Of a stretch of DNA of 64,000 nt, positions 2,176-57,965 are shown in pieces (positions within the stretch are counted from its first letter, which is position 1; every line of letters starts with the position of its first letter). A model generated the notes under the pieces. It made no database searches and was not told where the DNA came from. It saw only the letters and a program-made list of their open reading frames with translations. The translations under genes and the position numbers were made by a program. The stretch lies in NCBI RefSeq assembly GCF_026914265.1, contig NC_069124.1:74400765-74464764 (forward strand), given 5' to 3'. Source of the DNA: Mya arenaria (Eukaryota; Mollusca; Bivalvia; Myida; Myidae).

Positions 2176-2293
2176 CATTTGGAACTTCCTGTTTTCATTC
2201 CTTTTTATATATATATGTAATTGACAAACGTGTTTTTTCAATGGTGGCCTTTTATTGAGCATTTATACGTCACTTCTGTGCCTCGAAATGCAG

Positions 2294-16573: not shown

Positions 16574-16674
16574 CATTTGGAACTTTCTGTTTTAATTCCT
16601 TTTTAAATATATGTAAATGACAAACGTGTTTTTACAATGGTGCCCTTTTATTGAGCATTTATACGTCACTTCTG

Positions 16675-17400
16675 AAAGTGAAAGTTGGTTTAAGGTTGGA
16701 AAAATGGGAAGTAGACGACTTGAAAAACGTTATTCTGTATATCGGTGGGAACGACGTATCTGATGGCCAGGATCTTCACGAAATGTATAAACAACTGAAA
16801 GATGGAATAGAATCAGTACAACGTAGAAATCCGTACTGCGAAATGTACGTTTGCACCATTTGTCCCCGAGCGGACTGTGAGGTTAGCCAGGCTAATAAAA
16901 TGCTGGCAGCGCTGTGCGAAGAAACGGGAGCCAAACTTATTAATACATTTAATAAGTTTGTATTCGGTGACGGTTCCTCAATTCCGGAGTATTAAAACCA
17001 CGACGGTATTCATTTGAACAAAAAAGTAACAAGTGCTTTGGTTCGTGCAATTAACACGTCGGTGAAAATAATTCGAAGCTCAACAGACGCAGGAAGTTAT
17101 CACTCCGAAATCGGCGGTGCAGTGCGAAACGCACATAAACCCGAAGCAGCTTATAGGACGGGTCGTGAAAGAAAATCTGCGGGACAACGCGGTGAAAGAA
17201 CAAGGAGGCACTCGGACAATATAAACAATAAATCCCCTCGGCAAAATGTTGCCGGCATTGACAGAGAACGAGATATACCCGTAGATCGTAATAAATGGTG
17301 TACACACTGCAGAATGCAGAACCACAATACCAGCGAATGTGGACGAAGGCGGCATGCTGGAAATACACATTTTAGTTCTAGCTCTTACCGGAAATACTAG
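16675..17400 (+). pseudogene. LINE ORF1: SGNH-esterase-like plus CCHC zinc knuckle
   Basis: One frame reads VILYIGGNDVSDG (the GxND block of SGNH hydrolases), CTICPRADCE, and DGIHLNKKV (the DxxH block with catalytic Asp/His). A basic region follows, then a zinc knuckle WCTHCRMQNHNTSEC (CX2CX4HX4C) near 17295-17340. A single in-frame TAA at 16993-16995 separates the esterase body from its DGIHL block. The N-terminal part, including the nucleophile Ser block, is missing through 5' truncation. ORF1 proteins with an esterase domain are known from CR1 and L2 elements. Confidence 0.8.
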
Positions 17401-17702
17401 GAATCCGCCGACAAACACAATCAAGGTAATGAAACTGTTTTTCAAATTATTCCACGTAATACGTTTATAATGATACCATTACAATTATTGTATATATATA
17501 GTAAATTCTGTAATATTATGAACAAGTATATTGAAGGAATTTCAATCAGGAATCGCAATCAAAAATGTGCGAATACAAATGCATGTAACTCTGACTATTT
17601 GTTACAACCTACGGGTCAGCCTCAAAATATATATCCATTTACGTCATGTACGGTGAATACCCAAACTGATTTGATACAGGCTTTAATAATAATATTTCGA
17701 CT

Positions 17703-20555
17703 TTGCCAATTAAACATGACAAAAAGAATCATAAAGGCTTACACATAGTCAGTTTAAATATTCAACACATTTTAAACAAGCGAGATGAGTTTCATTTATT
17801 TCAGTCATTTCACATTGATATAATTGGTTTATGCGAAACGTTTTTGACACCCAGTGTACATGATAATGAATTAGTTATTCCTGGATATAGTTTCGTGCGC
17901 AAAGATCGCCTCGACAAAGGGGGCGGGGGTATAATTGTCTACATTTCATATAAACTCTCATATGTTAGGCGATATGATTTAGAGTCCGACACTTTAGAAT
18001 CCGTCTGGGTTCAAATCGCTTTACCCTGAAGTAAATCGTTTTTAGTAAACTTTGTATATAGACCTCCTGATTCTTCACAAAACTGGATAGATCTATTTGA
18101 AACTCAATACAACAAATTAGGAAGCAAGGATAGTGAAGTATATGCTCTAGGGGACTTTAACATCAATTATTTTCCAGACAAAACAAATAAATTCAATAAT
18201 GCAAAATGGGAAAATTTTCTTTCAAAGTTTGGACTTTCTCAAATCATTTAAACGCCAACTAGGATTCATACAAATTGTTCGTCTATTATAGACCATATAT
18301 ATACAACAAGAAAAGATCTCATCTAAGATATTGCTGTATATAATTATACCATAAGCGACCACTTGCCTATCGCTTTCACGAGATCAGTAAAAAAGAAACA
18401 AGTGAAAAACAGTCACGATTCAATAACATATCGATGTTATAAAGGCTTCGATGAAGATCTTTTTAAAGCAGATTTAGTTAACTCGAATCTGATCCTTATC
18501 GATTCAATAGCAGATCCAAACTTTGCTTTGGACATTTTTTATGATACAATTCATACTGCTCTTTCTAACCATCCGACAATCAAGCAAAAGAGAATTAAAC
18601 ATGCGAGTCAACCGTTTTGGTTCTCGGATCAAATAAAACAAACAATTTTTTTGAGGGATTATTATTTTTTGCACAAAGATTTTGAAAATTACAATAAAAC
18701 ACGAAACAAAATTTCATCTATGATACGCAAAAGCAAGAAATCCTTCTATAACGATGCTATCAAAAATAATAAATCTTCAAAGTGTCTTTTGCAAAACCTG
18801 AATGATATCACAAATAACAACAAAGCACACCAATTTAGTATTCCAAATAAACTTATAGTAAATGAAAAAGATATTGAGGGTACAGTGGAAATATTGGAAG
18901 CCTTAAATTCTCACTTCACCAATATATCTAATATAATAAAGAGAAAACCATTTGCTAAGGAACATTTTTCTACTCTGCAGAAATATCTGGATGAAAAATT
19001 GCGACATCATCAATTTAATGTGGAAAATATTACTGCCCTTGATGTAAAGCACATCATTGACAAACTTGACATTTCAAAGTCCACTGGTCCTGATGGAATA
19101 GGACCAAACATTTTACGCTATTGTGGCGATTACATAACATCTACAATAGCTTCCATCATCAATAACAGTATAGAAAGCGGTATATTTCCTGACAAATTGA
19201 AAGAAGCTTCTGTTGTCCCGATACACAAATCAGGAAATAAAAACGAACCGGGAAACTATCGCCCTATATCCATTCTCAATACTTTATCAAAGATATTTGA
19301 ACGACATATTGCGTCTCAGTTGCAAATGTTTTTTAAGAGAACGGATATTATACACAAAAATCAGTCGGGTTTCCGTCCAAATCACTCATGTCAGACTGCA
19401 TTAACCCACCTTACAGATACTTGGTTGAAGGGTATAGACAGTGGTGATTATGTAGGGGCCATTTATCTCGATCTCCGAGAAGCATTTGACTTAGTTGACC
19501 ATGAAATACTCTTACACAAACTTAAACTTCACATCACAGAAAGGTCTATGAAGTTATTTAGGTCCTATCTGACTAACAGGATGCAATTTGTGAAAGGGAA
19601 CAACATAAATTCAGAGAAAATGAAAACTATGTCGGGTGTCCCTCAAGGATCAATACTCGGTCCCTTACTTTTTCTAATATACATCAATGATATGCCTTTA
19701 ATTTCTTCCAATTCATGTATTGACTTATATGCAGATGATTCCACGTTATACAAAATAGGTCCAAGTATACTGAGCATTCAATCAGATCTACAAAAAAGTC
19801 TTAATAGTGTGAACTGTTGGTGTAAGACAAATAATATGTCGATCCATCCATCAAAAACCAAATGTATGATTCTATGTACTAATTATAAGGCAAAACATGC
19901 ATTGCAACTTGAACTATCAATAGATGGATTGTCAGTAGAAAACGTGAAATGTCAAAAGGTCCTCGGGGTGCATGTTGATCAGACATTGCCATGGCATACA
20001 CATGTTAAGACTGTAGTGAATAAGCTTAATTCAAAATTGGCACTTCTAAGAAGAATAGCATATTATTTAACAGACGAGATGAAATCATTGTATTATAATG
20101 CATATATCATGTCAAACATGGAGTACTGTTGTAGTGTCTGGGGACTTACACATTTCTCAGATACCACAAAAATCACTAATATTCAGAAAAGAGCGATTAA
20201 CCTAATAATGAAGTCGGGAACTAGCCACTGTGGAAACATGTTCAAACAGTCTGGGTTGCTATCTTTTGAAGACAGGTGCTATTATCATCTTTCATTACTT
20301 GTTTTCAAAAGCATGAAATGTTTGACTCCTTCGTACTTCAAAGAATTGTTAACATTTGCCAAAAATGAGCACTATAACTTGCGTTCTTCAGAAAACAAGG
20401 ATCTTTTTGTTGTAAAACCTAGAACAAACTATATCAAAAATACATTTGCCTATAAAGCAATGAAAATTTGGAATTATCTTCCTACATACATTAAATGTCA
20501 AGATAAGCTACCAGCCTTTAAACATGCATTAAAAGGCTACTTATTGGCAAAATAA
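17703..20555 (+). pseudogene. LINE ORF2: APE-like endonuclease and reverse transcriptase
   Basis: The endonuclease motifs are all visible in one frame: SLNIQHILNKRDEF, GLCETFL, ALGDFNI and SDHLPI. Three in-frame stops lie between them, at 18027, 18249 and 18324. From 18363 the frame is open to 20555. The RT shows STGPDGI, YRPISIL, SGFRPNHSC, AIYLDLREAFD, SGVPQGSILGPLLF and the catalytic YADDSTLY. The C-terminal region ends in the HYNLRSSE ... KIWNYLPTYIK block shared by CR1/Jockey-group elements of marine invertebrates. No RNase H domain. Clade placement beyond the CR1/L2/Jockey group would need a tree. Confidence 0.9.
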
Positions 20556-21067: not shown

Positions 21068-21270
21068 TTCTGTGTCTCGAAATGCAGCCTTTGAGAAGAC
21101 GACGGCTGCGCTGACGTTCGACAACTTTAACGTGTGGCCGGTTCCAGCGCACATGCCTGGTGGCTGCATTTCTCGGTTGACCTGACGGTGAATCGGCCGC
21201 TCCCCCACCTGTACGTGGACGAGGAAGTGCATGAGGTCATCAGGCACTACCTCTTTAAGCTGCCCTGTTT

Positions 21271-24148
21271 TATGGATGCTATTTGTTGCCAAAAGTCCAG
21301 ACGTGTATGTGTGTATTTTAGGTTTGTATCATTGATGATTTACCAATTTACATTTTACAACCGCCAACTCATCGGATGTATGTTTACATTTTACACTGCA
21401 CATTTTCATTTTTCATTGTACCGATTCGAGTTTTATTCTCGTTATATCTATTCATCAGACGATTCAGTCGTGTTTATAAAGTTGTGTATGTTAAACACAC
21501 GTCATTCTGTGAAAGTCACATGCCGGGTTTTACATTGCGGTGTGTAGAAGACAGATTTCAGTTCGCAGTTCTACAAAATACATTGTATGGTGGTAACTTT
21601 TCATTCGCAGTTGAACATGTTTACGAGATGAATTCATTTTTATTTATAGATAGCTCCGCCTTAACCATGTCTTAACTCCGCCTTAACCATGTCTTAACTC
21701 CTCCTTACGTCTTTCGGAAATTTCCGCTATCACTCGGCTCTATTTAAACCAATTATGGATACTTTGGACCATGGACATTGCGAACCTTATTATGGACATT
21801 ACGAATCATCTATATTATGACACTATGGACTATGATTTGGAAACAGGATGGATTATAAATTATTTCATGTCGAATAAAATAATATATGATATTACAACAT
21901 GTTTTTGTCTATATAATAGTAATTGATACGCACATATGACATGAAATGAGATGTATGCAAAATGATACTTGACTCAAACACAACAAAATGTTAGTCATTA
22001 GCATTAAATTATACTTCAAAAATGAAAAGTCCCATTGTCTTATTTTTCTTTTAAAGCTGCACTCTCACAGATTGACCGTGTTGACAACTATTTTTATTTT
22101 TTGTTTTGGAATTAGCCAATTTTTGCGTAAATGTCTGGATACCAGTGGTATAAGACTGCTGACAAAAGATCAGATACAGTTTTTCAGTTTTACGTTCGCA
22201 AATTGATGTTTTATGGCTAAAAGTGATACTACAGTAACGTTTTAAGAAAAATGAAAAATGTCGGCAGTTTTCCAAACAATTTAGATCTGTTTTATTGTGA
22301 GTAATCTTATTATTTGTATAGAAAGCATTTCTGCCAAAATCAGCCGAGTCTGGGACAAAAAAAGGTTGTCAAAACTGTCAATCTGTGAGAGTGCAGCTTT
22401 AAATTACTATATTTACTATTTTAAATTCAACCATTAGAGGACACTTTCTTGCCTTTTTGCAATGTTTAAGATTGCAAGTAATATTAGATAATTTAAAATT
22501 TACGAAGAAAAAAATCTAAATTTTCATTAAGTGGAAATTATTCACTAAGATGCCCCAGAGGTTTCTTACCTGGTAGCTGGAACTGTATTGATAAAGTACA
22601 CTAAGATTACAACTTCATATAACTCGTACATTATACTGTAACGAATATTATTTTATAGCTAATTAATAAAGTATTTTAATGATGACGTCAATTTATTGCT
22701 AATAAACAGTTATTACTTGCTGCTAGCTTTTATACCCCACCCACACTCAACAGGCTTTTTTTCACATTTAGGTGAAGCGGACCTAGCCCTTTTGGAGGGG
22801 AAAAATCGCGCGTTTGTTTTTTTTTATCTAAGACTCACGATACCTATTTTTTCATGTTCTTGAAATCCCCCACTTGGTTGTTATGGTTCACAATGGCGCA
22901 GATCCCGTAATTCATAACTGGGGGACACAAGTGGGTTGGAGGGTTGTTCTTCCACCCACATGGATATTTTGTTTCAATGATGTATTGAAATTACACGTTT
23001 ACACCATACATGCTTATTAAGATAGTAAATGTATAACATCAGACAAAACTAGGTGGATATCATTATGATGTCCATCAAAAGTTTCGTGGGTTTGCTGGAG
23101 CAGGTTTTGAACAGGGACTTGCGTTAGAGGGGCGTTACTTAAGGGCACAACTTTTTGGACATGATCCCTGAAGAGGGCATGCCATTAATATGTTTAAAAT
23201 GTGGGAAGTGGGGTTAAGGGGTACTCCCCCTAAAATATATCAAATAGTTTTAGTCTGAATTGGTGCATTATGGCGTAATTAAGTATTTAAGAGAAATATT
23301 GACAAAACAATAACCTTTAAGGTTACTTGCGGGCCAACTGGGGGGGGGACACAGGCCCTACAGCTCCCCCCCCATGGTCCACTTGTAAATAAAATAAATG
23401 AACAATATTTGCCTGCTTGGGTATATAAGTAAAAAAAAAACTGACAGTGGCAGTATAAATCTGGGTCCGTGAGCCCAGCTCAGATACACCCAACTGCAAT
23501 TGACTAAATAATATGGTGATTTAAAACCCATTAAGGAACATTGATCGTCAGAATAAAATAAAAGATGAAGTTAATTTTAGTTTTTATTGTGAAACAAAGA
23601 GAGAGTACTCGGACTTACAACCGGGAATTTACAGGAGATAGGCGAATATGTTATCTCCCTTGCTTGATTCGACGGAAATAAACGAAAGAAAATCTGATTC
23701 GTTAGCTCCGCCCATTCACCTTCGTTTCTTTCGGTGACATTTACCATATAAGGTATAGGCGAAATCGTCTATCCTTGTAATTCTGAACTTGCCAATTGAC
23801 TTTTGTAAACCTGGACTTGTTGGACTGCAAATGTTCATTTTACGAATGCGAGTGTCGACTGTAGGATTGCAGTTTTATATATGCATGATTCGGCTTTCTA
23901 AATTACATCATCATATTGTTAAAGGCAAGTTATACGATCTATGTTTTAGTGAGTTTATACAGGGTCGATCTGACAAATATACATTTTGACTACTATAATG
24001 ACAAATGACAAATCAATACGGAACAACTGACGAATAGAAACAACAAATAGCACGTCTACATTGACAAATGTAAGAGATATTTAGTACGATTAAGAAGCAC
24101 ATTGTGGGAATTACACGTCTGGACTTTTGGCAACGAATAGCCTCCATA
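21271..24148. mobile_element. 2.9-kb TIR element with 6-bp target duplication, unclassified
   Basis: It interrupts exon 2 of the pseudogene. CTGTTT is present on both sides (21265-21270 and 24149-24154). The ends are inverted repeats of about 37 bp: TATGGATGCTATTTGTTGCC at the left and, on the other strand, TATGGAGGCTATTCGTTGCC at the right, continuing with AAAAGTCCAGACGTGTA in both. No transposase-sized ORF lies inside, so it looks non-autonomous. It carries a nested TTAA MITE at 22051. A 6-bp duplication is uncommon among the familiar DNA transposon superfamilies, so I do not name one. Confidence 0.75.
22051..22402. mobile_element. TTAA-type MITE, copy 3 (nested)
   Basis: 352 bp with TTAA at both edges and the best-preserved termini of the family (AGCTGCACTCTCACAGATTG, mirrored at the right). 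It is inserted into the 2.9-kb TIR element, so the family was still moving after that element arrived, or the element carried it. Confidence 0.8.
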
Positions 24149-25616: not shown

Positions 25617-28600
25617 ATGCAGGCCTACTGGATTTGTATTGTGTTCACTTTTATGCGCTTGAATTTCACATATGGTCAACACAACTGGACTATATGCAGT
25701 GAGTAATCGTTCTGGTATAAAAGTCTAGAGTAGTGACTTTGTGTGTGCATGCTCACTGAATACTGATATACTAATGTTGAGTAGAGCCTTTTCGTACAGA
25801 TGTTTGCTGTAGTCTGATATACAAGTATTAAGAACTGACTTTTTGTATGGATGCTGGCTGTAGTTTGATATACTAATGTTGAGATGAGCCTTTTCGTACA
25901 GATGCTCGCTGTAGTCTGATATACAAGTATTGAGAACTGCCTTTCTGTATGGATGCTCGCTGTAGGCTGATCTACTAGTCGCGAACAGTGACTTTCTGTA
26001 TGAATGCTCGCTGTAGTCTGATATACAAGTATTGAGAACTGCCTTTCTGTATGGATGCTCGCTGTAGGCTGATCTACTAGTCGCGAAGAGTGACTTTCTG
26101 TATGGATGCTCGCTGTAGTCTGATATACAAGTATTGAGAACTGCCTCTCTGTATGGATGGCCGATGTAGTCTGATATACTAGTATTGAGCTCGCTGTAGT
26201 CTGTTATACTAGTCGCGAAGAGGGACTTCCTGTATGGATGCTCGCTGTAGTCTGATATACTAGTCGCGAAGAGTGACCCTTGTATGGATGCTCGCTGTAG
26301 TCTGATATGCCAGTCGCGATGAGTGACTTTCTGTATGGATGCTCGCTAAAGTCTGATATACTTGTCTTCATAAGTGCCTATCTGTATGGATACTCGCTGT
26401 AGCCTGATATACTTGTCTTCAAGAGTGACTTTCTGTATGGATACTCGCTGTAGCCTGATATACTTGTCTTCATGAGTGCCTATCTGTATGGATACTCGCT
26501 GTAGCCCGATATACTTGTCGCGAAGAGAGACTTTCTGTATGGATGCTCGCTGAAGTCTGATATACTAGTCGCGAAGAATGACTTTCTGAATGGATGCTCG
26601 CTGTAGCCTGATAGACTTTTCTTCTTGAGTATCTATCTGTAACGATACTCGCTGTAGCCTGATATACTACTAGTCGCGAAGAATGACTTCCTGTATGGAT
26701 GCTCGCTGTAGCCTGATTTACTAGTCGCGAAGAGTGACTTCCTGTATGGATGCTCGCTGTGGTCTGATATACTAGTCGCGAAGAATGACTTCCTGTATGG
26801 ATGCTCGCTGTAGCCTGATTTACTAGTCGCGAAGAGTGACTTCCTGTATGGATGCTCGCTGTGGTCTGATATACTAGTCGCGAAGAGTGCCTCTCTGTAT
26901 GGATGCTCGCTGTAGTCTGATATACTAGTCGCGAAGAGAGACTTTCTGTATGGATGCTCGCTGTGGTCTGATATACTAGTCGCGAAGAGAGACTTTCTGT
27001 ATGGATGCTCGCTGTGGTCTGATATACTAGTCGCGAAGAGTGACTTCCTGTATGGATGCTCGCTGTGGTCTGATATACTAGTCGCGAAGAATGACTTCCT
27101 GTATGGATGCTCGCTGTAGCCTGATTTACTAGTCGCGAAGAGTGACTTTCTGTATGGATGCTCGCTGTGGTCTGATATACTAGTCGCGAAGAGAGACTTT
27201 CTGTATGGATGCTCGCTGTGGTCTGATATACTAGTCGCGAAGAGTGACTTCCTGTATGGATGCTCGCTGTAGTCTGATATACTAGTCGCGAAGAGTGACT
27301 TTCTGTATGGATGCTCGCTGTAGTCTGATACACTAGTCGCGAATAGTGTCTTTCAATATGGATTCTTGCTGTAGTTTGATATACCAGTCGCGAAGAGGGA
27401 CTCTCTGTATGTATGCTTGCTGTAGTCTGATATCATAGTCGCGAAAAGTGACTCCGTTTGGATGCTCGTTGTAGTCTGATATACTAGTCACGAAGAGTGA
27501 CTTGCTGTATGGATGCTCGCTGTAGTCTGATATACTTGTCTTCATGAGTGCCTTTTGTTTAAATGCTCCGATCGAAAAACCGCGAGGACTTCTTTGCGGT
27601 CTGGACGATCGTTGTAGTCCGATAGTCATGAGAAGTTCTGTTTTGTGTAGATGCTTGCTGTAGTCTGATAAGACTAGTCACAAGGACTTCCTTGCTGAAT
27701 GGATGTCCGCTGTAGTTCGATAGACTAGTCTTCAGGAATGCCTTTCCTTATAAATGATCGCTGTAGTTCGATAGACTAGTCTCATGAGTCTCAATAATTT
27801 CCTTTCTGAATGAACAGTATTATTTTCTGCCTTTATTTTGCATTGGTTTGGAATAAGAGCTAAAATGTTGAACAAATGTAGAACAAATGTAGAACAAATG
27901 CCTTCTTAAACGGTCTGTCTTCATGGCAATATACTAATAAAAAGTGTTGCAACTTATCTATAAGTTATATATATGTTCTACTGCAATTTACAAAATCGAA
28001 ATATGTATTTGAATGAGCTATGCTGATTTCTAATGTCTATTTTTACTTTAGATCCAGATGTAAACAATGATATCGTAGTCGTGCACGAGCTAGGCATATT
28101 CCCGATCACAATCCGACTTCCGGGACAGTATAACGTCACGGTTAATGCCACTATCGGCAAACGAATCGACCACCTGATGATAGATGTACAAGTAGGGCTT
28201 GAAAACCATACCACGGGAGAGATAGATCTCGTGTATCCGCTGGATGACCAGTATCTGTAAGTCTTAGGTGTTTCTGGTGATATTGAACTTGGAGGGACTG
28301 ACGACTGAGCGTTTTCATTTTTTTCAATAATTATGTTCTATATGTACTTTGAAATATTTTGTGCTTTTAGAATGGACCAGTTATGCACCAGTCAATTGTA
28401 ACCACGGCTTTGACTTTTGGTCCTGCCAAGCCCGTGTAAAACCCCCGACCTGCGGGGACGAACTGATGGTAAAATCCCAGCCAAATGCCCCCGTTCTCAA
28501 GGGACCCTAAGTAAGGCACATTCCCCGGTATATTTGACCCGAATACAAAACCACCGCATTCACCCGGCACTGCGCGGCCTCCGGGAAGTTAAAAACACGG

Positions 28601-33539: not shown

Positions 33540-36500
33540 CTAACCCGTGTCACGTGGTACACAAGCAGTCTTTACGTAATCATAACATTGATTGGGTTCG
33601 CACTCAATTTCAAACACAAGTGGTCCGGTGCTAACACAGAACACAACCAGTGTACAAGGTCCATCTGGATGGGGGTAGATTGTGTTCAGTCTTTTCCCGA
33701 TACAATAATCCGCTGAAATATACGCGAGACAGGATGTTTTTAGACTGATTTCATGATTCGTCAAAGGTAAGATATACACAAACAGAAAATACAGATGTAG
33801 TTTAATCATGTTGTTGTTGTTTTTTCGAACGTTTAAGTGTTAACGTCTTAACATAAACTGGTACGCATATCTTGAAAAACGAAACAGCTGGGTTTATAAA
33901 CTACCAAGTTAAAACAAGATAAGTTTCAACTCTTACAACAAAATTACAGGTGTGATCAAAATGCTTACCGGGGACGACCTTTATTGTGACGTCACTAGTG
34001 GTAGTCTGGATAACTTTTGGATCATCCCACAATTGCACGACCTCGCAGCGAAACGTAGCACCATGCTCGAAAAGTGTAACATTAAATGTCAGGGTACTGT
34101 TTATAACTGTAGTGCAATTGTTATAACTAAGTTTGTTGACAGGAGCAACACTAAAATCCATAAACTTTGTCGTGGATTCTGGTTTAAATTTCCACACAAT
34201 GGCGCCATTGGTTCCCCAGACGTCGGCCAAACAACTAAGTTTCACCTCCTTGTCCTCCACAATAGAGTGGGGAACCTTAATATAGGGCTCGGGCATGAAA
34301 ACTGAAAATAATGGAACGGATCATTCTTATATTTTATGGTCGACAGGGTCACCAATAGGTTAAAAACCCATAACAGTTCCGTTGTTCAAAATCAAAGTTA
34401 CATGACGAAAACTAAAAACTAAAACGAAAATGATATAGTAAGGTTAATTTGCAATGGATGGTTAACGAGTAATCAAAAAGTTTAAACCAAACAAGTCTCT
34501 AAAACTGTAGCATTCCATATCACTTACTTTGTACCAGTGCAGTTGCTTTGGCCACATGCTCTTTGTTTGCAATGGTGCACGTGTAGTTTGTGATATCTAT
34601 ACAGCGGAAGGGGTCGAGGTAAAGTGTGAGGGAGACGCGATTGTCGTTGACAGACACGAGGTGGGTCATGTTCGGAAGGAACTTGATCACCTCCACAGCG
34701 CCCTCCTCCCCCAAGACGGCTAGGGCGATCGCCTCGTACCCGTCCTTGAACTGCTTGTGGATGGCCAGGGACTCGAATGCGCCGCTGTGGCTCCCCTCGC
34801 AGAACAGCGTCAGAGAGGTGACGTCAGTTGGGTTGTAGAGGATATTGCTCATTGACACAGCTGGAAGAGATAAAAGATAGATTGGTACCCGTTACAGCAT
34901 GCATGTATAATTTGAAAGAATTATTAATGTGTTTCTTTTGTTGACTGTATGCTCATCATTGTTTCATTCCTGCCAGGTTGTACCAGTAAACAATTTTACA
35001 ATTATAAAACAATAAATACTACAGACACAAGCCCGGTAAACTAAAGTTTAACCTCTATCCTTTACATTGGTAACACGGGAGATCCATAACGTCATATGAT
35101 AACACACACATTATTCGAGCATGGACATGTCGTTATCAGTAAATAATGGCGTCACTGTCCTTGATTGTCACTGTCACATTTTGTTATTTTGAAACAGTTA
35201 ATGAATACAAAAAAATAGATATTATGATTACGCATTACTGTCATCGTTTTATTGATAGCTGTTTAAAGACAATTACTTTATTACTACTGTGGCCATGCAA
35301 TCATTTGTGAAATGCAATGCTAAATATAAGGACCATTTGCAATAGATGTGACAGTTCTTACTCAAGTTGTGAGACGTGGTCATAGTGGGAGGACTTTGTG
35401 TTGCATTTGTAGACTCATTTCCTGTTTGTTCGTTATTTGAGATACTAGTAGATTGGACCGTCGTCGTCGGCGTTCTTGGATCTGTAGGCTCGACAGGAGA
35501 TGGTGCAGTAGTAGGTATCGCTGTAGTAGTTTCCACAGTAGGCGAACGTGTTGTTGGTTTTTGTGTTGTTGGCCTTTGTGTAATCGGTTTTTGTGAAGTC
35601 GGGTTTTGTGTCGTAGGTTTTTGTGTAGTCGGATTTTGTATCGTAGGTTTTTGTGTAGAGGGATTTTGCATCGTAGGTTTTTGTGTAGTCGCCCTTTGTG
35701 TAGTCGTGTTTTGTGTAGTTGGCTGTTTTGTCATCGGCTTGTGTGTAGTATATTTTTCTGTGATGGGCTGTTGTGTTGTTGGTGGTTGTGTTGATGGCTT
35801 CAGCGTAGGAGCCTCCTGTGTTGTCTGGGAGCCAAACGTGATAGACAATGTGGTCGGCACAGGAGACTTCCGGGTGGACAGAGGAGTACGGCCTGCAATC
35901 AGTGAAGTTAAACACGCGTACTTAGCAATCAATCAGTAAAAAGCTATTTGTGCACACAACCATTTGTTCTGAACTGATCTAATCTCAAATTTAAACAGAT
36001 ACGAGTTAATAACGTAATCTTATAATTATGAAATATGTCTGATAAATATCAAACCACCATTATTTTTTTTGCAAATTGATTTAAATGAAAATACTGTTCC
36101 TTTTAAAACCTTGTTTACCTTCTCCGTCCCGCGAACCCACCACTGTTGTCACCGCCTCGGTGTCGGAATCTGTAAAAGTACAACACAATGGGGTTTCGAT
36201 GACATGCAATTGTTTAAAGTAAAACACAACATGTTCATTAATTGTTGCGTATTAATAAACTGACAAATGGAATGAATAAATGTCAAGTAAATCTGATAGA
36301 TTGCTGAGTTTTAAAGTTTTCCAACGGGTCTTGTTTTGTAAAAACAACAACACATATTGAAAGGGTCGTATGCTTTAAAAGCCTGGCGTCGAAGCAATAA
36401 ACTAGCTTGTTATGTTGAGCGAACCTTGAACGTATCATTGCAGTTTGCAATAAAACATAATGACAGATAGTTACATAAGGAGAACACAATGTAACAATTA

Positions 36501-39500
36501 TATCATCTGCAGATATTAACGGCATGCTTTTTTATTTTGAAATATGAATGATTTTATTTGCGACACAAAAGTTTATATACTGAACATATTAGACTGCAAT
36601 TCGACACAGTTTAAAAGAAATGATGAATTGACAGCTCTATTGATGGCGGTTGTCTTAAATAAGTAAAATAAAACCAGCTACTTGCAGTGAATGGCGAAAT
36701 CATTTGAAATAAATAGCCTACTAAGAAGCACCCTTTCCCCCGAAAAACATTAAATGCGTTGCCAAAAGAATTAGCATAAAGTAACATACAATACAACTTG
36801 TTTTAAATACTGCATGAATTCAAGTTATGGTCAAACTATTTCATTCCAAACACCGACAGCACCAAAGATGAATTCTGCTTTATAAATACCCTGTCCGTTT
36901 CTGGCAAAGTAGATAGCGACGGTGATGCCGACGATAATGATGACTGCTACAATAATGATGGCTGCCAGGAACGCCCAGCGCGTCCGGCCCTGTGAGCGGA
37001 GCTTGTCCCCGATCATCTTCATACTAGAGCGAGAGGATGATGAGGAGGAAGATCGAGTATCCGGTCCGTTACCGCCCTGTCCCTCATCCTGTAGTCAAGA
37101 TAACGAAGGTTCTAACACATTTGGAGATATAGTTTTGTATGAGTTTTTACTGGAAGATCAGTTTCAAATCTGTCATGCCGCGTGCATTTGAACTTAGGCA
37201 ATTACTTTGACTAGCGTTAGTTGTAGTAAATACACCAGTATTTCCCGTGGCAAAAATATTCTTTCAACATTCAACAATGCAACGTTCAGCTTTTGATGAT
37301 AATGGATGTTTGAAAGTCCGAGCCTCTTTAAAAATGTTTTGGTCATATCGCATAAACAAGTTTTTTTCTGTACAACAGAAGTGACCTAATATGATAGGTT
37401 TTCATAGAAAAGTAACCAAACAGTCAAATTATACACATAAAAAATCTTTCTTAGAATGATGGAGTAAGTATACATGTGGTTACTTCGGTTATATCTATCA
37501 ACCTTAAAGTATTAGAAATTGGTTTCGGTGAGTATTTTATTCCTAAACACTGGGAACAAATGGGTTGATTGCTCGTGACTAAAACATTAATCAGATGTAA
37601 TTCGTTTTGTGTTGTGTTTTTGTATGCCCAGATTGCCATGGTGTCATCAAGCTTTGTACGACTTTAATTGCGCTTGGAAATTTAATTTCTATTGTGTATG
37701 CATATACTTTGATTTATAGATTAGAACATTTATACTTTGACTTAAGTAAATATATCAGATGTCGTGAATGGATCTAAAGCTATAATAAATTGGGAGCACT
37801 GTTTTCAAAATATTATTCAAATGAACTTCTGGTGATCCATTACGTGTATACATTTTCTTTTTTTTTTCTTTTGAAAATGTGCATGGATATTTGGTCATGA
37901 TCAGTTGGAAAACTATTCAACAGTTCCACATTTATCGCGTGTTTAATCAAAATAATGCCCTGGCTGTGCCCATATATTATTTGTATAAAAAAGTTTTTGG
38001 CTTCAGGAGTTGTTGTCTAGGAACGTAGACATGGATATTATCATAAATGTAAACCTACATATACAGTATTGCATTACTTGTTTCATTATCATCATGTTCA
38101 ACACCTGGCCGCTATTTCTCGCAAATTCGTAAGCATAAAAAGTTTAAGTTCCTTATATACATTTAACAAATGGCTTACTTATATACTCCATTTTGCATAA
38201 CCAAACGAATGTCATGATTTTCTTTAAAATGAATAAATTATGGATTTGAATGGAATTGACATCCAGTAGTAGTTTAAAAAATCTTTTAAAATGAGATAGC
38301 GAGGTTAGCTTAATCGTCTTATAAGGGCCATCATAGGGCCGTAAGAGATGTTTATCTATTAAGAATGTTCAAAAGAACACCACATATGTTTAAAATAATA
38401 TTGACTATGTTCCTAATGTTACGAATGTGTATTAAAATCATACAGCATCCGATATTTATACCAGAACCTTGTTGTTGAACGGAGGTCAGGTCGCTTTGAC
38501 TGTATTTAATTGAAACATATTTAAACAAATCATTCATCATTTCCGTACGCAAACCATGTAATAATATTCAAAGAATAAAGACGAACGACGGTAATAAAAC
38601 TGTTACAATGAAACGGCTACAGACACGCTTATTTTTATAGTAGTACAAAACGCATGACAAAGTGTTGAGTCAATTTATAGAGTTCGCTAGGCTGTTGTCA
38701 GCATCTGGTAGATATCTCTAGACTATTGTCAATATTTGGTAGAACTCTCTCTACTATTGTCAGCATTTGGTAGATCTCTCTAGACTATTGTAAATATTTG
38801 GTAGATCTCTCTAGACTATTGTAAATATTTGATAGAACTCACTAGACTATTGTAAATATTTGGTAGAACTCTCTCTACTACTGTCAGCATTTGGTAGATC
38901 TCTCTAGACTATTGTCAATATTTGGTAGAACTCTCTTTTCTATTGTCAGCATCTGGTAGATATCTCTAGACTATTGTCAATATTTGGTAAAACTCTCTCT
39001 ACTATTGTCAGCATTTGGTAGATCTTTCTAAGCTATTGTAAATATTTGGTAGATCTCTCTAGACTATTGTAAATATTTGGTAGATCTCTCTAGACTATTG
39101 TCAATATTTGGTAGATCTCTCTGGCCTATTGTCAATATTTGGTAGATTTCTCTAGACTGTTGCAAATATTTGGTAGAAGTCTGTAAGCTATTGTCAATAT
39201 TTGGTAGATCTTTCTTTACTATTGTCAATATTTGATAGAACTCTCTCTACTGTTGCCAATATTTGGTAGATCTCTTTTGACTGTTGCAAATATTTGGTAG
39301 AAGTCTGTAAGCTATTGTCATTATTTGGTACATCCCCCTATACTATTGTCAATATTTGATGAAACTCTCTCTACTGTTGCCAATAATTGGTAGAACTCTC
39401 TCGACTATTGCCAATATTTAATATATCTCTCTAGACTATTGTCAATATTTGGTAGAACTCTCTAGACTACTGTCAATATTTGGTAGATCTCTCTCGACTA

Positions 39501-40702
39501 TTGCCAATATTTGGTAGATCTCTCTCGACTATTGCCAATATTTGGTAGATCTCTCTCGACTATTGTCAATATTTGGTAGAACTCTCTAGACAATTGTCAA
39601 CATTTGGTCGAACTCTCTAGGCAATTGTCAATATTTGGTAGAACTCTCTCGACAGTTGTCAATATTTGATAGAACTCTCTCGACAGTTGTCAATATTTGG
39701 TAGAACTCTCTCGACAGTTGTCAATATTTGGTAGAACTCTCTCGACAGTTGTCAATATTTGGTAGAACTCTCTAGACTATTGTCAATATTTGGTAGAACT
39801 CTCTAGACTATTGTCAATATTTGGTAGAACTCTCTCGACTATTGTCAATATTTGGTAGAACTCTCTAGACAATTGTCAACATTTGGTAGAACTCTCTAGG
39901 CAATTGTCAATAGTTTGTAGAACTCTCTAGACTAGTGTCAATATTTGGTAGAACCCTCTAGAGTCTAGCCTATTGTCAATATTTTTGTAGAACTCTCTCG
40001 ACTATTGTCAATATTTGGTAGAACTCTCTCGACTTTTGTTAATATTTGGTAGAACTCTCTGGACTATTGTCAATATTTGGTAGACCTCTCTAGAGTCTAG
40101 ACTATTTTCAATATTTTTGTAGAACTCTCTCGACTATTGTCAATATTTGGTAGATCTCTCTAGACTATTGTCAATATTTGGTAGATCTCTCTAGACTATT
40201 GTCAATATTTGGTATAACTTTTTTAATTAATTACAATATTTGGTAGGACTCTCTAGGCTATTGTCAATATTTGGTAGAACTTTTTACTATTGTCAATATT
40301 TGGTAAAACTCTCTAAGCTATTCCCAATATTTGGTAAAACTCAAGGATGAATCCAGTATCGTTAGCCGTATGTACTAACAGCTTTGACTTAAGAAAAACA
40401 GAATTGTTAGCTGTATGTACTAACAGCTTTGACCTTGAGGAAGCCAATATCCTTAGCCGGATCTACTCACAGTTTTGACCTTGAGAAAACCAGTATCGTT
40501 AGCCGTTTGTTCTCACAGCTTTGACCTTGAGGAAAACAGTATCGTTAGCCGTATGTACTCACAGCTTTGACCTTGAGGAAAGCAGTATCGTTAGCCGTAT
40601 GTACTCACAGCTTTGACCTTGAAGGAACCAGTATCGTTTGCCGTATGTACTCACATATATATAGGCTGGATTTCTATATCCCTGTTCTTCCTTATTCTTC
40701 AT
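33540..40702 (-). CDS. Type II membrane protein: NPAY tail, TM, mucin stalk, two Ig domains, C-terminal chitin-binding domain (VCBP-like layout)
   Basis: Coding exons in transcript order: 40702-40655, 37088-36890, 36169-36119, 35892-35362, 34860-34528, 34301-33969 and 33712-33540. All have GT-AG borders, and the 1668 nt join in phase to 555 aa. Residues: 1-53 cytoplasmic with Y9-RNPAYIY and a run of seven Ser; TM about 54-77 preceded by KLRSQGRTR, so N-in; 100-276 Thr/Pro/Gln-rich stalk of TTQKPT-type repeats; Ig 1 277-387 (C297, C371, no canonical Trp); Ig 2 388-498 (C411, W424, C472); 499-555 CBM14-like YCIGKRLNTIYPHPDGPC...C...C...C with cysteines 502, 518, 524, 536, 541 and 549. The usual sixth CBM14 cysteine is absent and C541 is extra. 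An acceptor at 40717-40718 implies an upstream 5' UTR exon. Ig-Ig-CBM14 is the order in protochordate VCBPs, which are secreted. Likely role: surface binding of chitin-like glycans or microbes (inference). Confidence 0.82.
35540..35720 (-). repeat. Stalk-encoding repeat inside the mucin exon
   Basis: Within the 531-nt stalk exon, units of about 30 bp encode pairs of five-residue blocks (TTQKP, TMQNP, TIQNP). The opposite strand shows a matching Val/Gly/Phe/Cys ORF that is only a shadow. Such arrays often vary in copy number between alleles. Confidence 0.75.
38690..40345. repeat. 31-bp minisatellite in intron 1 of the Ig/chitin-binding gene
   Basis: About 50 units of about 31 bp (core TTGTCAATATTTGGTAGAAC then TCTCTCGACTA), with variants that run in blocks. 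It lies wholly in the intron between the start-codon exon and the transmembrane exon. Between 37089 and 38689 I see nothing coding. Confidence 0.93.
40345..40660 (-). repeat. 46-bp tandem repeat containing the exon's 5' splice site
   Basis: About seven units of 46 bp. On the minus strand each unit reads ...CAAAGCTGTGAGTACATACGG... The real donor of the start-codon exon (TAT|GTGAGTACATACGG at 40654) is the first of these. Four units keep GTGAG at this place; the two oldest-looking keep GTTAGT. Confidence 0.75.
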
Positions 40703-46439: not shown

Positions 46440-48545
46440 TGAACCATTTATAGTTTTGAACCAATCCCGTAGTAGCTAGAGATCGGCACATAAACCAGAC
46501 CCATTGTAGCTAAAAAATGAGTGTTTAAACAAGTTCAATTGTAACAAAAGATGGGCAATAAAGCCTGTTCAATTGTAGCTAAATATGGGCATTTAAAACA
46601 GTCCCATTGTAGCTAAAGATGGGCATTTAAAACAGTCCCATTGTAGCTAAAGATGGGCATTAAAGCAGTACCATTGTAACTAAAGATGGGCATTTAAAGC
46701 AGTACTATTGTAGCTAAAGATGGGCATTTAAAGCTGTACTATTGTAGCTAAAGATGGACATTTAAAGCAGTACCATTGTAGCTAAAGATGGGCATTTAAA
46801 GCAGTACTATTGTAGCTAAAGATGGGCATTTAAAGCAGTACTATTGTAGCTAAACATGGACATTTAAAGCAGTACCATTGTAGCTAAAGATGGGCATTTA
46901 AAGCAGTACTATTGTAGCTAAAGATGGGCATTCAAAGCAGTACTATTGTAGCTAAAGATGGGCATTTAAAACAGTCACTGTACCATTGTAGCTAAAGATG
47001 GGCATTAAAGCAGTACTATTGTAGCTAAAGATGGGCATTAAAACAGTCCCATTGTAGCTAAAGATGGGCATTAAAGCAGTACCATTGTAGCTAAAGATGG
47101 GCATTTAAAGCAGTACTATTGTAGCTAAAGATGAGCATTTAAACAAGTCCAATTGTAACAAAAGATGGGCAATAAAACCGGTCCAAGTTTAGTTAAGATG
47201 GGCATTTAAAACAGTCCCATTGTAACTATGGATGGGCATCTAAACCAGTCCCATTGTAGTTAAAGATGGGCATTTAAAGCAGTACAATTGTAACTAAAGA
47301 TGGGCATTTAAAGCAGTACCATTGTAGCTAAAGATGGGCATTTAAAGCAGTACTATTGAAGCTAAAGATGAGCCTTTAAACCAGACCCATTGTAGCTAAA
47401 AATGAGCATTCAAACAAGTCCAATTGTAACAAAAGATGGGCAATAAAACCGGTCCAAGTTTAGCTAAAAATGGGCATTTAAAACAGTCCCATTGTAGCTA
47501 AAGATGGGCATTTAAAGCAGTACCATTGTAGCTAAAGATGGGCATTTAAAGCAGTACTATTGTAGCTAAAGATGGGCATTTAAAGCAGTACTATTGTAGC
47601 TAAAGATGGGCATTTAAAGCAGTACTATTGTAGCTAAAGATGGGCATTTAAAGCAGTACTATTGTAGCTAAAGATGGGCATTTAAAGCAGTACAATTGTA
47701 GCTAAAGATGGACATTTAAAGCAGTCACTGTACCATTGTAACTAAAGATGGGCAAATCAAGCAGTATTATTGTAGCTAAAGATGGGCATTTAAGCAGTAC
47801 CATTATAGCTAAAGATGGACATTTGAAGCAATCCAATTGTAGTTAAAGATTGGCATTTAAAGCAGTCCAATTGCAGCTAAAGATGAGCCTTTTAACAGAT
47901 CCAATTGTAGCTAAAGATGGGCATTTAAAGCAGTATCATTGTAGCTAAATATGGGCATTTAAAGCAGTACCATTGTAACTAATGATGGGCATTAAAAGCA
48001 GAACCATTTTAGTTAAAGATGGACATTTAAAGCAGTCAGATTGCAGCTAAAGATGAGTTTTTTAACAGGTCCAATAGTAGCTAATGCACCAGTCAATTGT
48101 AACCACACACCCCCAGGTCCTGGGGTATACCGGGGATAACCGGGGAAATGGGCCGTGTTTTTTACCTTTCAGGTGGCCCCGCAGTGCCGGTGGTTTTGTT
48201 TTCGCGCAAAATATAGCCAAAATATAGCGGGGAATGGGCCTTACCTAAGGTCCCTTGGGTGCGGGGGCATTTGGCGGGGATTTTACCATCAGTTCATCTC
48301 CGCAGGGCGGGGATTTTAGCCGGGGTTGGCTGGACCGAAAGTCAAAGTCCCCGTTATTCCCGGACCTGGCGGGGCCGTGGTTACAATTGACTGGTGCATA
48401 AAGATAACACTTTCAAACAGTTCCAATGAAGCTAAAGATAACCTTTAAAGTTTAAACCAGTCCTATTGTAGCTTAAGATGAGCCTTTAAATCATTCAAAA
48501 TGTAGCTTAAGATAAGCCTTTAAACCAGTCTAAGTAAAACATTGT
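46440..48545. repeat. 34-bp minisatellite
   Basis: About 50 units of 33-34 bp (core AGCTAAAGATGGGCATTTAA then AGCAGTACCATTGT), degenerate at both edges and more uniform at 46560-47700. It is interrupted at 48085-48398 by a MITE. Not transcribed in any recognisable gene. Confidence 0.93.
48085..48398. mobile_element. PIF/Harbinger-type MITE, copy 2
   Basis: 314 bp, same inverted ends as 28384-28658 (TGCACCAGTCAATTGTAACC), flanked by TAA on both sides (48082-48084 and 48399-48401). It is inserted into a unit of the 34-bp minisatellite. Confidence 0.78.
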
Positions 48546-52283: not shown

Positions 52284-52854
52284 GCATTTTATTGGCCTTC
52301 AGGAGTGTGGTTATATCAAACATAAACAAGTCAAGTATGAAGCAATATCAAATGAGCAAGTCAAGTTATGCGGTAGGTCTTAGGTCGAGTAACTTGCAGA
52401 CAGAAAAACTACAGATGGACGAATGGACATATGTGCTGATATTGATAACTGATTAAATATTCCACAAGTCACAAATGTACTAGTAGGACAACTTTTGGGA
52501 AAAATGAAATTCCCTTTGCTACCCTCCCACTATTTGACCGTACATAATAATATTTTTGCACTTCGATATGTGATCAATGTGATTACATTATAAATGTAAT
52601 TTGTGAATTTTGCGGTCCTACAAAGCACTACTCCTGCCTGAATGTATACATATTTTAAATAAACTGTTCACACAATAAATCATTCATTTACTCTACATAA
52701 TTATGTTCATTTATTTTCTCCTCGTCTGTGATATGTGTGATCATGTGTACAGTTTGCAGTCGATACTACCACATCGATACATGATACCATACAGAGAGTA
52801 TATATTAGCGCAACGATACATGATACACCACTGGAGTAAAAGCGCAGTAAAACA

Positions 52855-53515
52855 CGCTACATCAAAGTGGTATTAGCGCAACGATACGTGATATCCCTCA
52901 TAAGTATTAGCGCAATAATGTATTCTACACCATGTGAGTATAAGCGCAACGATACATGAGACACCACGGGAGTATAAGCGCACAATACATGATACACCAT
53001 GGGAGTGTTAGCGCACAATACATGATACCTCCGGGGGGTTTAGCGCAGCGATACACCACGGGAGTATTAGCGCAACGATACATCACGGGAGTATTAGCGC
53101 AACGATACACCACGGGAGTATTACCGCACAATACATGATACACCACGGGAGTATTACCGCACAATACATGATACACCACGGGAGTATTTGCGCAACGATA
53201 GACCACGGGAGTATTAGCGCAAAGATACACCACGGGAGTATTAGCGCACAATACATGATACACCATGGGAGTATTTGCGCAACGATACACCACGGGAGTA
53301 TTAGCGCACAATACATGATACACCACGAGAGTATTTGCGCAACGATACACCATGGAGTATTTGTGCAACGATACACCACGGGAGTATGAGCGCAACAATA
53401 CACCATGGGAATATTAGCGCAACGATACACCACGAGAGTATTAGCGCAACGATACATCACGGGAGTATTAGCGCAATAATACATGATACACCACGGGAGT
53501 ATTAATACCAGCTAT
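52855..53515. repeat. 27-34-bp minisatellite, left block
   Basis: Tandem units built around CACGGGAGTATTAGCGCAAC followed by GATACATGATAC, with shorter 27-bp variants. The same family continues after a 1.1-kb unique island at 54610. Long ORFs on both strands (AQYMIHHGSI-type and ANTPVVYRC-type repeats) are artefacts of the repeat. Confidence 0.93.
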
Positions 53516-54609: not shown

Positions 54610-57600
54610 ATAACGCAATAATACATGATACACCACGGGAGTATTAGCGCAATAATGTATTCTACACCACGGGAGTATTAGCGCAATAATAAATGATACA
54701 CCACGGGAGTTTTAGCGCACAATACATGATACACCACGGAAGTATTAGCGCAATAATACATAATACACCACGGGAGTATTAGCGCAATAATACATAATAC
54801 ACCACGGAAGTATTAGAACAATAATACATGATACACCACGGGAGTTATTGAGTTCCATACATAATAAAGCATGGGAGTATTAGCGCAACGATACATAATA
54901 TGCGACGGGAGTATTAGCGCAACGATACACGATACACCAAGGGAGTATTAACGCAACGATACACGATACACCATGGGAGTTTTAGTGCAACGATAAATGA
55001 TTCACCATGGGAGTATTAGCGCAATGATATATGATACACCACGGGAATATTAGCGCAACGATACACCACGGGAGTATTAGCGCAACGATACATGATACAC
55101 CATGGGAGTATTAGTGCAACGATCAATGATTCACCACGGGAGTATTAGCGCAACGATACATGATACACCACGGGAGTATTAGCGCAACAATACACCATGG
55201 GAGTATTAGTGCAACGATAAATGATTCACCATGGGAGTATTAGCGCAACAATACATGATACACCATGGGAGTATTAGGGCCATGATACATGATACACCAT
55301 GAGAGTATTAGTGCAACGATAAATGATTCACCACGGGAGTATTAGCGCACAATACATGATACACCATGGGAGTATAAGCGCAACGATATATGATTCACCA
55401 CGGGAGTATTAGCGCACAATACATGATACACCATGGGAGTATAAGCGCAACGATATATGATTCACCACGGGAGTATTAGCGCACAATACATGATACACCA
55501 CGGGAACATTAGCGCAACGATACACCACGGATGTATTAGCGCAACGATACACCACGGGAGTATTAGCGCAACGATACACCACGGGAATATTAGCGCAACG
55601 ATACATCACGGGAGTATTAGCGCAACGATACATCACGGGAGTATTAGCGCAATGATACATGATTCACCACGGGAGTATTAGCGCACAATACATGATACAC
55701 CATGGGAGTATAAGCGCAACGATACATCACGGGAGTATTAGCGCAACGATACATCACGGGAGTATTAGCGCAATGATACATGATTCACCACGGGAGTATT
55801 AGCGCACAATACATGATACACCACGGGAGTATTAGCGCACAATACATGATACACCATGGGAGTATAAGCGCAACGATACATCACGGGAGTATTAGCGCAA
55901 CGATACATCACGGGAGTATTAGCGCAATGATACATGATTCACCACGGGAGTATTAGCGCACAATACATGATACACCACGGGAGTATTAGCGCAACGATAC
56001 ATCACGGGAGTATTAGCGCAACGATACATCACGGGAGTATTAGCGCAATGATACATGATTCACCACGGGAGTATAAGCGCACAATACATGATACACCATG
56101 GGAGTATAAGCGCAACGATACATGATTCACCACGGGAGTATTAGCGCAATAATACATAATACACCACGGGAGTATTAGAACAATAATACATGATACACCA
56201 CGGGAGTTATTGAGTTCCATACATAATAAAGCATGGGAGTATTAGCGCAACGATACATAATATGTGACGGGAGTATTAGCGCAACGATACACGATACACC
56301 AAGGGAGTATTAACGCAACGATACACGATACACCATGGGAGTTTTAGTGCAACGATAAATGATTCACCATGGGAGTATTAGCGCAATGATACATGATACA
56401 CCACGGGAATATTAGCGCAACGATACACCACGGGAGTATTAGCGCAACGATACATGATACACCATGGGAGTATTAGTGCAACGATCAATGATTCACCACG
56501 GGAGTATTAGCGCAACGATACATGATACACCACGGGAGTATTAGCGCAACAATACACCATGGGAGTATTAGTGCAACGATAAATGATTCACCATGGGAGT
56601 ATTAGCGCAACAATACATGATACACCATGGGAGTATTAGGGCCATGATACATGATACACCATGAGAGTATTAGTGCAACGATAAATGATTCACCACGGGA
56701 GTATTAGCGCACAATACATGATACACCATGGGAGTATAAGCGCAACGATATATGATTCACCACGGGAGTATTAGCGCACAATACATGATACACCATGGGA
56801 GTATAAGCGCAACGATATATGATTCACCACGGGAGTATTAGCGCACAATACATGATACACCACGGGAACATTAGCGCAACGATACACCACGGATGTATTA
56901 GCGCAACGATACACCACGGGAGTATTAGCGCAACGATACACCACGGGAATATTAACGCAACGATACATCACGGGAGTATTAGCGCAACGATACATCACGG
57001 GAGTATTAGCGCAATGATACATGATTCACCACGGGAGTATTAGCGCACAATACATGATACACCATGGGAGTATAAGCGCAACGATACATCACGGGAGTAT
57101 TAGCGCAACGATACATCACGGGAGTATTAGCGCAATGATACATGATTCACCACGGGAGTATTAGCGCACAATACATGATACACCACGGGAGTATTAGCGC
57201 ACAATACATGATACACCATGGGAGTATAAGCGCAACGATACATCACGGGAGTATTAGTGCAACGATACATCACGGGAGTATTAGCGCAATGATACATGAT
57301 TCACCACGGGAGTATTAGCGCACAATACATAATACACCACGGGAGTATTAGCGCAACGATACATCACGGGAGTATTAGCGCAACGATACATCACGGGAGT
57401 ATTAGCGCAATGATACATGATTCACCACGGGAGTATTAGCGCACAATACATGATACACCATGGGAGTATAAGCGCAACGATACATGATTCACCACGGGAG
57501 TATTAGCGCACAATACATGATACACCACGGGAACATTAGCGCAACGATACACCACAGGAGTATTAGCGCAACGATACACCACGGGAGTATTAGCGCACAA

Positions 57601-57965
57601 TACATGACACACCACGGGAGTATTAGCGCAACGATACACCACGGGAGTATAAGCGCAACAATACACCACGGGAGTATCAGCGCAATGATACATGATTCAC
57701 CACGGGAGTATAAGCGCAACGATACATGATACACCGTGGGAGTATAAGCGCAAAGAAACATGATACACCGTGGTAGTATTAGCGCAACGATACATGACAC
57801 ACCACGGGAGTATTGGCGCAACGATACATGATACACCATGGGAGTATTAGTGCAACGATATATGACACACCACGGGAGTATTAGCGCAACGATTCACCAC
57901 GGGAGTATTAGGGCAACGATACATAATAAACCACGGGAGTAAACGCGCAACGATACATGATACCC
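54610..57965. repeat. 27-34-bp minisatellite, right block with 1.36-kb higher-order repeat
   Basis: Same unit family as 52855-53515. Two long blocks, about 54765-56126 and 56127-57490, are nearly identical at a shift of 1362 bp (the irregular marker GAGTTCCATACATAATAAAG occurs at 54849 and 56211), showing a recent block duplication. Confidence 0.92.

Follow-up and report, generated by a model that had tools for sequence, protein, structure and literature searches.

In this work, we confirmed a gene whose 555-aa open reading frame has the layout given in the initial annotation: a predicted type II membrane anchor, a Thr/Pro-rich stalk, two immunoglobulin (Ig)-type domains and a C-terminal CBM14-like tip (Table 1). 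The frame is obtained by joining seven minus-strand exons, from 40702 to 33540 of the window, i.e., the whole 64-kb stretch of DNA that was analysed. Our leading reading, held tentatively, is that the product is an animal's tethered recognition receptor of type II orientation, with a chitin-gripping tip and an uptake motif, whose layout was put together by shuffling independently of the VCBPs.

Table 1. Coordinates of the gene features in the window, from the N- to the C-terminus of the protein.
Feature	Positions	Strand	Basis or remark
Exon 1, residues 1-16 (MKNKEEQGYRNPAYIY), YRNPAY at residues 9-14	40655..40702	-	least certain exon
Exon 2, remaining cytosolic part and membrane anchor (about W54-F77)	36890..37088	-	Kyte-Doolittle
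Exon 3, short 51-nt phase 1-1 exon on the C-terminal side of the anchor exon	36119..36169	-	G+C 0.63
Exon 4, Thr/Pro/Ser/Gln-rich stalk, residues 100-276	35362..35892	-	composition
Coding tandem repeat within the stalk, 30-bp (10-residue) unit, 6.7 copies, 77% matches	35548..35749	-	
Exon 5, Ig1, residues 277-387	34528..34860	-	333 nt; exon scan; tandem matches
Exon 6, Ig2, residues 388-498	33969..34301	-	333 nt; Pfam and structure matches; exon scan
Exon 7, CBM14-like tip, residues 499-555 and stop codon	33540..33712	-	Pfam CBM_14 match below threshold

The predicted type II topology, with a single anchor and the disulfide domains on its C-terminal side, is supported by three features: the anchor is the only strong hydrophobic segment of the protein (Kyte-Doolittle 3.3 over 19 residues), residues 1-53 preceding it carry a net charge of +4, and all 9 N-glycosylation sequons are located C-terminal of it. 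The residue counts of exon 4 agree with the annotated Thr/Pro stalk, as 53 T, 28 P, 15 S and 20 Q are found among its 177 residues. On the cytosolic side, YRNPAY fits the Y-x-N-P-x-Y form, as does YENPTY, the internalization motif of APP (PMC5371672); the frequency of [FY]xNPxY, a motif chosen after being noticed, was 0.00027 in shuffles of residues 2-53.

Regarding the C-terminal domain, the name CBM14-like stands as a profile match that lies under the Pfam cut-off. The tip alone reached E 4.4e-4 and 20.8 bits (cut-off 22.1) with CBM_14, aligning to profile positions 1-48 of 53, and the same match within the whole protein had E 0.024 and 15.2 bits; in shuffles of the tip with cysteines fixed, it was found in 0 of 5. 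The peritrophin-A pattern is CX13-20CX5-6CX9-19CX10-14CX4-14C (PMC8035744), and the cysteine gaps of the tip are 15-5-11-4-7, with C541 as an extra cysteine and none after C549. Gaps 15, 5 and 11 fall within 13-20, 5-6 and 9-19, whereas with the last ones (4 and 7, against 10-14 and 4-14) the canonical six-cysteine spacing is absent; without C541, the C536-C549 gap becomes 12, which fits the pattern, and the sixth cysteine is then absent. NCBIfam gave no match for Ig1, Ig2 or the tip.

If the protein is a tethered recognition receptor, its stalk would be O-glycosylated and rod-like, raising the head tens of nanometres above the membrane, and the CBM14-like tip would grip chitin or another GlcNAc polymer, possibly in a fungal wall, in food particles, or in the gut or shell matrix of the animal itself. 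Through its Ig pair, the receptor may make a second contact: with the surface of a microbe, with an Ig protein acting as partner, or with a further copy of itself. Provided that exon 1 is correct, the cytosolic YRNPAY would recruit clathrin or PTB adaptors, leading to the internalisation of bound material. Both chitin binding and endocytosis by this protein are activities that we infer from its sequence, and its layout may have arisen by exon shuffling of phase-1 modules, independent of the VCBPs. A more specific proposal, namely that a non-chordate invertebrate reached the VCBP plan on its own by phase-1 shuffling, and that a mucin stalk of variable repeat length and YxNPxY made of it a stalked phagocytic or endocytic receptor acting on chitin-bearing particles or chitin-held microbes, appears doubtful to us.

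Alternatively, the protein could be a structural tether with no immune role: in an epithelium such as that of the mantle, gastric shield or gut lining, its tip would hold the cell to chitin matrix made by the same animal, and its Ig domains would bind adjacent matrix or cells. A tip carried outermost on a long mucin-like stalk would suit such a function, and CBM14 domains occur widely among the shell-matrix proteins of molluscs. Further, VCBP-C binds the animal's own gut chitin, in addition to holding bacteria on chitin beads (PMC6109156). However, a plain tether needs neither two Ig domains nor a cytosolic uptake-type motif, and we consider this alternative unlikely.

Of the two Ig-type domains, the second has the good assignment. 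Ig2 contains C411, W424, an extra C450 and C473, the latter being the second cysteine that the initial annotation had placed at 472. Its Pfam matches were Ig_3 (E 0.0027) and C2-set_2 (E 0.089), both under the curated cut-off, and no Ig family was matched in 5 shuffles with the cysteines and the tryptophan fixed. Against solved structures, all 53 chains among the matches listed belong to the immunoglobulin superfamily (48 are antibody light chains, and two only have E<0.01), the best one being JAM-A (E 0.0043), the first domain of which we take to be V-type. Other weak matches were obtained with two Ig shuffles, and because one of these was at E 0.0069, a value of about 0.003 is not strong alone.

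The Ig1 assignment is weaker, and better supported in tandem with Ig2. This domain displays C297 and C371, whose spacing (73 residues between) is presumably V-like, a strand F of the form DxTxYxC and an extra C363, with no Trp in strand C; it had no match in the Pfam search, and its only match to solved structures when queried alone was Dscam, a weak one (E 1.2). With the Ig1-Ig2 tandem as query, 50 of the 51 chains among the matches listed were of the Ig superfamily, the best being CADM4 (E 0.0034) and Dscam (E 0.0062). In ten of these 51 rows, the chain was an antibody light chain whose alignment spanned the junction of Ig1 and Ig2, and the single alignments were weak (the best stretch of CADM4 had an i-Evalue of 1.3). 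Ig families were absent from the whole-protein Pfam scan, blastp detected no similarity between Ig1 and Ig2 (a MAFFT pairing of the two put the cysteines out of register and was left aside), and no V-set model was matched in the Pfam search at E up to 10, a range in which the HMMER filters remove most matches above 0.1.

The profile searches proposed in the initial annotation returned Ig_3, C2-set_2 and CBM_14 matches, all sub-threshold, and none for Ig1; the Ig-Ig-CBM14-like order was upheld by the Ig2, tandem and CBM_14 matches, with Ig1 and the tip entering by weak ones. The structure prediction also proposed there gave low-confidence models, since the two single-exon models made by single-sequence AlphaFold2 had pLDDT values of only 50.3 and 45.6, and Foldseek named neither an Ig nor a CBM14 fold among the matches listed (the best 50 of 452 for Ig1 and 26 of 26 for the tip, none with E<=0.001). 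Given the low confidence of the models, this outcome was weighed neither for nor against the assignments.

The sequence matches to solved Ig structures bear on a further alternative, which we judge rather improbable: an Ig protein of the CADM/nectin/JAM/Dscam/Beat type, serving adhesion or recognition, in which the tip would be a degenerate CBM14 with chitin binding lost. CADM4, Dscam and JAM-A, the best of the solved-structure matches listed, point in that direction, with Beaten path Vb also present at a lower rank, as does a tip that lacks the sixth canonical cysteine and has an extra one; however, those families are type I, GPI-anchored or secreted and are not known to have a type II anchor with a Thr/Pro stalk, and the tip retains the CBM_14 match that was gone in all five cysteine-fixed shuffles.

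The gene model proposed in the initial annotation held: the seven exons are present and join in phase, all 6 introns are GT-AG with phases 0,1,1,1,1,1 (five phase 1), and G+C is 0.44-0.63 in exons 2-7, 0.33 in the introns and 0.31 in exon 1. Both strands of the 64-kb window were scanned for phase 1-1 exons longer than 290 nt with an open frame and good splice sites, and two passed (minus 2, plus 0), which are the adjacent 333-nt Ig exons; this outcome is better than chance, with thresholds set after the splice-site scores of the gene were known and with site matrices of textbook frequencies. Exon 1, short and A+T-rich, is the least certain part of the model; among 5 candidates for the first exon, it comes fourth by donor score. 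An in-frame TAA immediately precedes its ATG, and the acceptor upstream of it is among the best 0.16% of AGs, with a likely exon start at 40716; because of this strong acceptor, a further exon of 5' UTR is probable upstream. At the other end, AATAAA and ATTAAA are absent in the first ~1 kb 3' of the stop codon, the nearest AATAAA being at 31606. The tRNA scan gave nothing relevant.

It is improbable, in our view, that the model is an artefact combining exons of two or more transcripts, for example because exon 1 is spurious or because exon 7 continues into another exon. Such an artefact would be consistent with the weak donors of exons 2 and 4 (ranks of 14.2% and 10.3% among all GTs), with an exon 1 donor that falls in the outermost copy of a tandem repeat with a 46-bp unit, and with the donor-like GT that overlaps the stop codon at 33544 (rank 5.7%, phase 1). 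Against it stand the strict phase agreement and the exon/intron G+C contrast, as well as the search for an exon beyond exon 7 giving the sixth cysteine, in which none of 8 downstream acceptor-led candidates was CBM14-like by eye.

The gene is single-copy within the window (tblastn, five pieces). Beyond it, tblastn gave the stalk a low-complexity match with E 2.5e-4 at 26169-25981, where a different tandem repeat is located, and all other non-self matches in the window had E values of 0.28 or more. In collections of viral, bacterial and archaeal DNA, where misses say little, the 279-aa ectodomain had no match to viral contigs, and none of the 9 matches from a pattern search of genome contigs was confirmed. 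One viral-contig match to the tip (L001, 16 residues) was rejected as chance, no further CBM14-like sequence being recognised in its open reading frame. The open-access literature, mostly titles and abstracts, yielded no such protein outside chordates, which leaves its absence in print unproven.

Among known systems, the VCBPs of sea squirts and amphioxus, which act in gut immunity, also have a pair of Ig-type domains and, C-terminal to these, a domain of the CBM14/ChtBD2 type. Splicing frame 0, the term used for their genes, is phase 0. The likeness of our predicted protein to VCBPs is one of domain order only. Amphioxus VCBPs are secreted, with a secretion signal in exon 1, splicing frame 0 throughout and a V domain [D2] spread over two or three exons (PMC2632668). 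In contrast, the gene studied here encodes no leader peptide, a reading that hinges on exon 1 only in part, the hydrophobic stretch at residues 54-77 being an anchor in exon 2, and it displays a type II anchor with a long stalk, phase-1 borders, and single exons for each Ig domain and for the tip. Moreover, VCBP Ig domains are V-type whereas no V-set match was obtained here in Pfam, and VCBPs were absent among the solved-structure matches listed for Ig2 and Ig1-Ig2, from a library that may lack VCBP chains. The kinship that the initial annotation had allowed is not supported: true descent of both from a shared bilaterian ancestor, the N-terminus having changed, is very improbable despite the identical extracellular order, and gene structure (phases, exon layout) rules it out as the leading reading. 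Convergent origin is favoured over an ancient relative, and because the gene structure is unlike that of VCBPs, we suggest an independent invention of the Ig-Ig-chitin-binding order.

If true, this plan arose more than once, and the combination of Ig recognition and chitin binding would constitute a recurrent answer for gut or surface immunity rather than a chordate invention. The receptor would be a cell-bound counterpart of the secreted VCBPs of gut immunity, with a testable uptake motif.

Among the matches listed, CADM4, Dscam and JAM-A are the solved structures nearest in sequence to the two Ig domains, and to our knowledge proteins of these types have neither a CBM14 module nor a type II stalked layout. 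We read the protein as a membrane-anchored, independently shuffled candidate analogue of VCBPs, closest in its presumed working to FIBCD1, a vertebrate type II transmembrane endocytic receptor that binds chitin (PMC9994688). FIBCD1 recognises chitin by a fibrinogen-like domain and has no Ig domains, and a fibrinogen-related domain is absent among the Pfam matches of our gene; the two share a type II anchor and a C-terminal carbohydrate-binding domain, putative in ours, and thus match in working only.

The predicted 555-residue protein is the product of an in-frame join of seven minus-strand exons in the window sequence (40702 to 33540), with GT-AG introns throughout, in phases 0, 1, 1, 1, 1 and 1, which upholds the seven-exon in-phase gene model of the initial annotation. 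G+C content is 0.44-0.63 in exons 2-7, 0.31 in exon 1 and 0.33 in the introns. Scored with our own site matrices, built from textbook frequencies, the exon 2-7 acceptors fall in the top 0.1-5.2% of AGs, and the donors of exons 1, 3, 5 and 6 in the top 0.2-2.4% of GTs; the exon 4 (10.3%) and exon 2 (14.2%) donors are weaker. Further, when the whole window was scanned on both strands for phase 1-1 exons that are open, exceed 290 nt and have good sites, using thresholds chosen once the site scores had been seen, only two were returned. These adjoin each other and are the Ig1 and Ig2 exons (5 and 6); none was found on the plus strand.

No second copy of the gene was found within the window. Searches of viral and prokaryotic collections turned up no relative, which is unsurprising for an animal gene. 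The surroundings include an intact-looking rhodopsin-family GPCR in one long ORF and non-LTR retroelement remains with their parts in separate ORFs. Long minisatellites are also numerous, reaching 105 copies of a 34-bp unit, and several reading frames are open in some of them. Two ORFs sharing the near-identical peptide stretch LPHLYVDEEVHEVIRHYLF probably represent a dispersed repeat.

Features of the window and of the studied gene
Feature	Position	Strand	Detail
Rhodopsin-family GPCR	10805-12178	+	7tm_1, E 2.3e-30
Non-LTR remains, GDSL-lipase-like ORF	16621-20555	+	E 4.8e-7, just under cut-off
Non-LTR remains, endonuclease piece	16621-20555	+	E 1.3e-5
Non-LTR remains, reverse transcriptase	16621-20555	+	E 8.7e-34
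Long minisatellites	3887-4334, 25711-27540, 46472-48055, 52803-53504, 54614-57963		
Repeat-peptide ORF	2221-2502	+	no Pfam match
Repeat-peptide ORF	21131-21547	+	
Ig2 exon	34301-33969	-	333 nt
Ig1 exon	34860-34528	-	333 nt
Stalk coding repeat	35548-35749		30-bp unit, 6.7 copies
31-bp tandem repeat	38687-40342		53 copies, intron 1, adjoins 46-bp repeat
46-bp tandem repeat	40349-40655		6.7 copies, intron 1, end copy contains exon 1 donor

The sole strongly hydrophobic stretch of the protein is W54-F77, preceded by a net charge of +4 over residues 1-53; since the disulfide-type domains stand C-terminal to this anchor, as do all nine N-glycosylation sequons, a type II orientation follows from the sequence, as originally proposed. 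Exon 1 is one of five candidate first exons in our own scan, fourth by donor score, and is favored by a top 0.16% acceptor at its start (40716), an in-frame stop immediately 5' of its ATG and a hydrophilic product. Against it counts its donor, GTGAGT, lying inside the end copy of the 46-bp repeat; GTGAGTACATACGG is present at 40654 and again at 40608 and 40562. If correct, exon 1 would supply YRNPAY, which shares its form with the internalization motif YENPTY (PMC5371672). Shuffling residues 2-53 produced this form at a frequency of 0.00027, the motif having been selected after being seen.

The Thr/Pro stalk (residues 100-276) likewise stands, with 53 Thr, 28 Pro, 15 Ser and 20 Gln; it is a coding minisatellite, and therefore its length may differ between individuals.

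Regarding the two proposed Ig-like domains, the evidence is firmer for Ig2 (C411/W424/C473), which alone matched Ig_3 (E 0.0027) and C2-set_2 (E 0.089) in Pfam, both under cut-off. None of five shuffles with cysteines and Trp fixed matched an Ig family, though one of the fixed-cysteine shuffles did reach E 0.0069 against an unrelated family. All 53 solved chains listed up to E 10 bore immunoglobulin-superfamily names. Antibody light chains, near-duplicates of one another, made up 48 of them, and the others were Beaten path Vb, a T-cell receptor and three JAM-A entries; only two, both JAM-A (0.0043, 0.007), had E<0.01. Ig1 (C297/C371) has DxTxYxC and lacks the strand-C Trp; it gave no Pfam match and alone listed one chain, Dscam (E 1.2), whereas in tandem with Ig2, 50 of 51 listed chains were Ig superfamily, the exception being 3sia. 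Among these, CADM4 (0.0034) and Dscam (0.0062) were best, over a stretch from Ig1 strand F on into Ig2, and in ten of the 51 rows the match was an antibody light chain whose alignment spans the same V-to-C junction. Additional cysteines in this region are C363 and C450. The whole protein returned no Ig family from Pfam, the domains gave no NCBIfam profile match, and single-sequence structure models were of low confidence and uninformative.

The C-terminal tip (exon 7, residues 499-555) alone matched CBM_14 at E 4.4e-4 (20.8 bits, below the cut-off of 22.1; E 0.024 in the whole-protein scan), a match recovered in none of five cysteine-fixed shuffles; against solved structures, a single unrelated chain was listed (E 1.2). 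Its six cysteines are spaced 15-5-11-4-7. Compared with the peritrophin-A pattern as given in PMC8035744 (CX13-20CX5-6CX9-19CX10-14CX4-14C), the first three gaps fit, but the fourth, C536 to C549, fits only with C541 skipped, and the sixth cysteine is then lacking, since no more than six residues follow C549. The stop is overlapped by a donor-like GT (33544, phase 1, top 5.7% of GTs) that could in principle extend the protein by an added exon; nothing was recognised in eight candidate downstream stretches. The predicted tip is called CBM14-like here, not CBM14.

In the most likely proposed working, O-glycosylation of the 177-residue stalk, if present, would keep the head well clear of the membrane. 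The outermost tip would be the first part to touch a chitin or GlcNAc surface, the Ig pair would provide a second contact, and YRNPAY, depending on exon 1, would take the complex into the cell. FIBCD1, described as a type II endocytic chitin receptor (PMC9994688), is a precedent that such a receptor can work. A structural tether and a degenerate tip are less probable alternatives to this proposed endocytic receptor.

The VCBPs, secreted chordate proteins one of which, VCBP-C, is described as tethering gut bacilli to chitin beads (PMC6109156), share their domain order with the studied gene, and to this extent the VCBP-like layout first suggested holds; the membrane anchor and the exon plan, however, are not those of VCBPs. 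In amphioxus, according to PMC2632668, exon 1 encodes a secretion signal, splicing is in frame 0 for all exons, exon 2 of VCBP2/5 carries no more of the first V domain than its N-terminal part, and the second V domain is spread over two or three exons. The simplest account is independent assembly from phase-1 modules.
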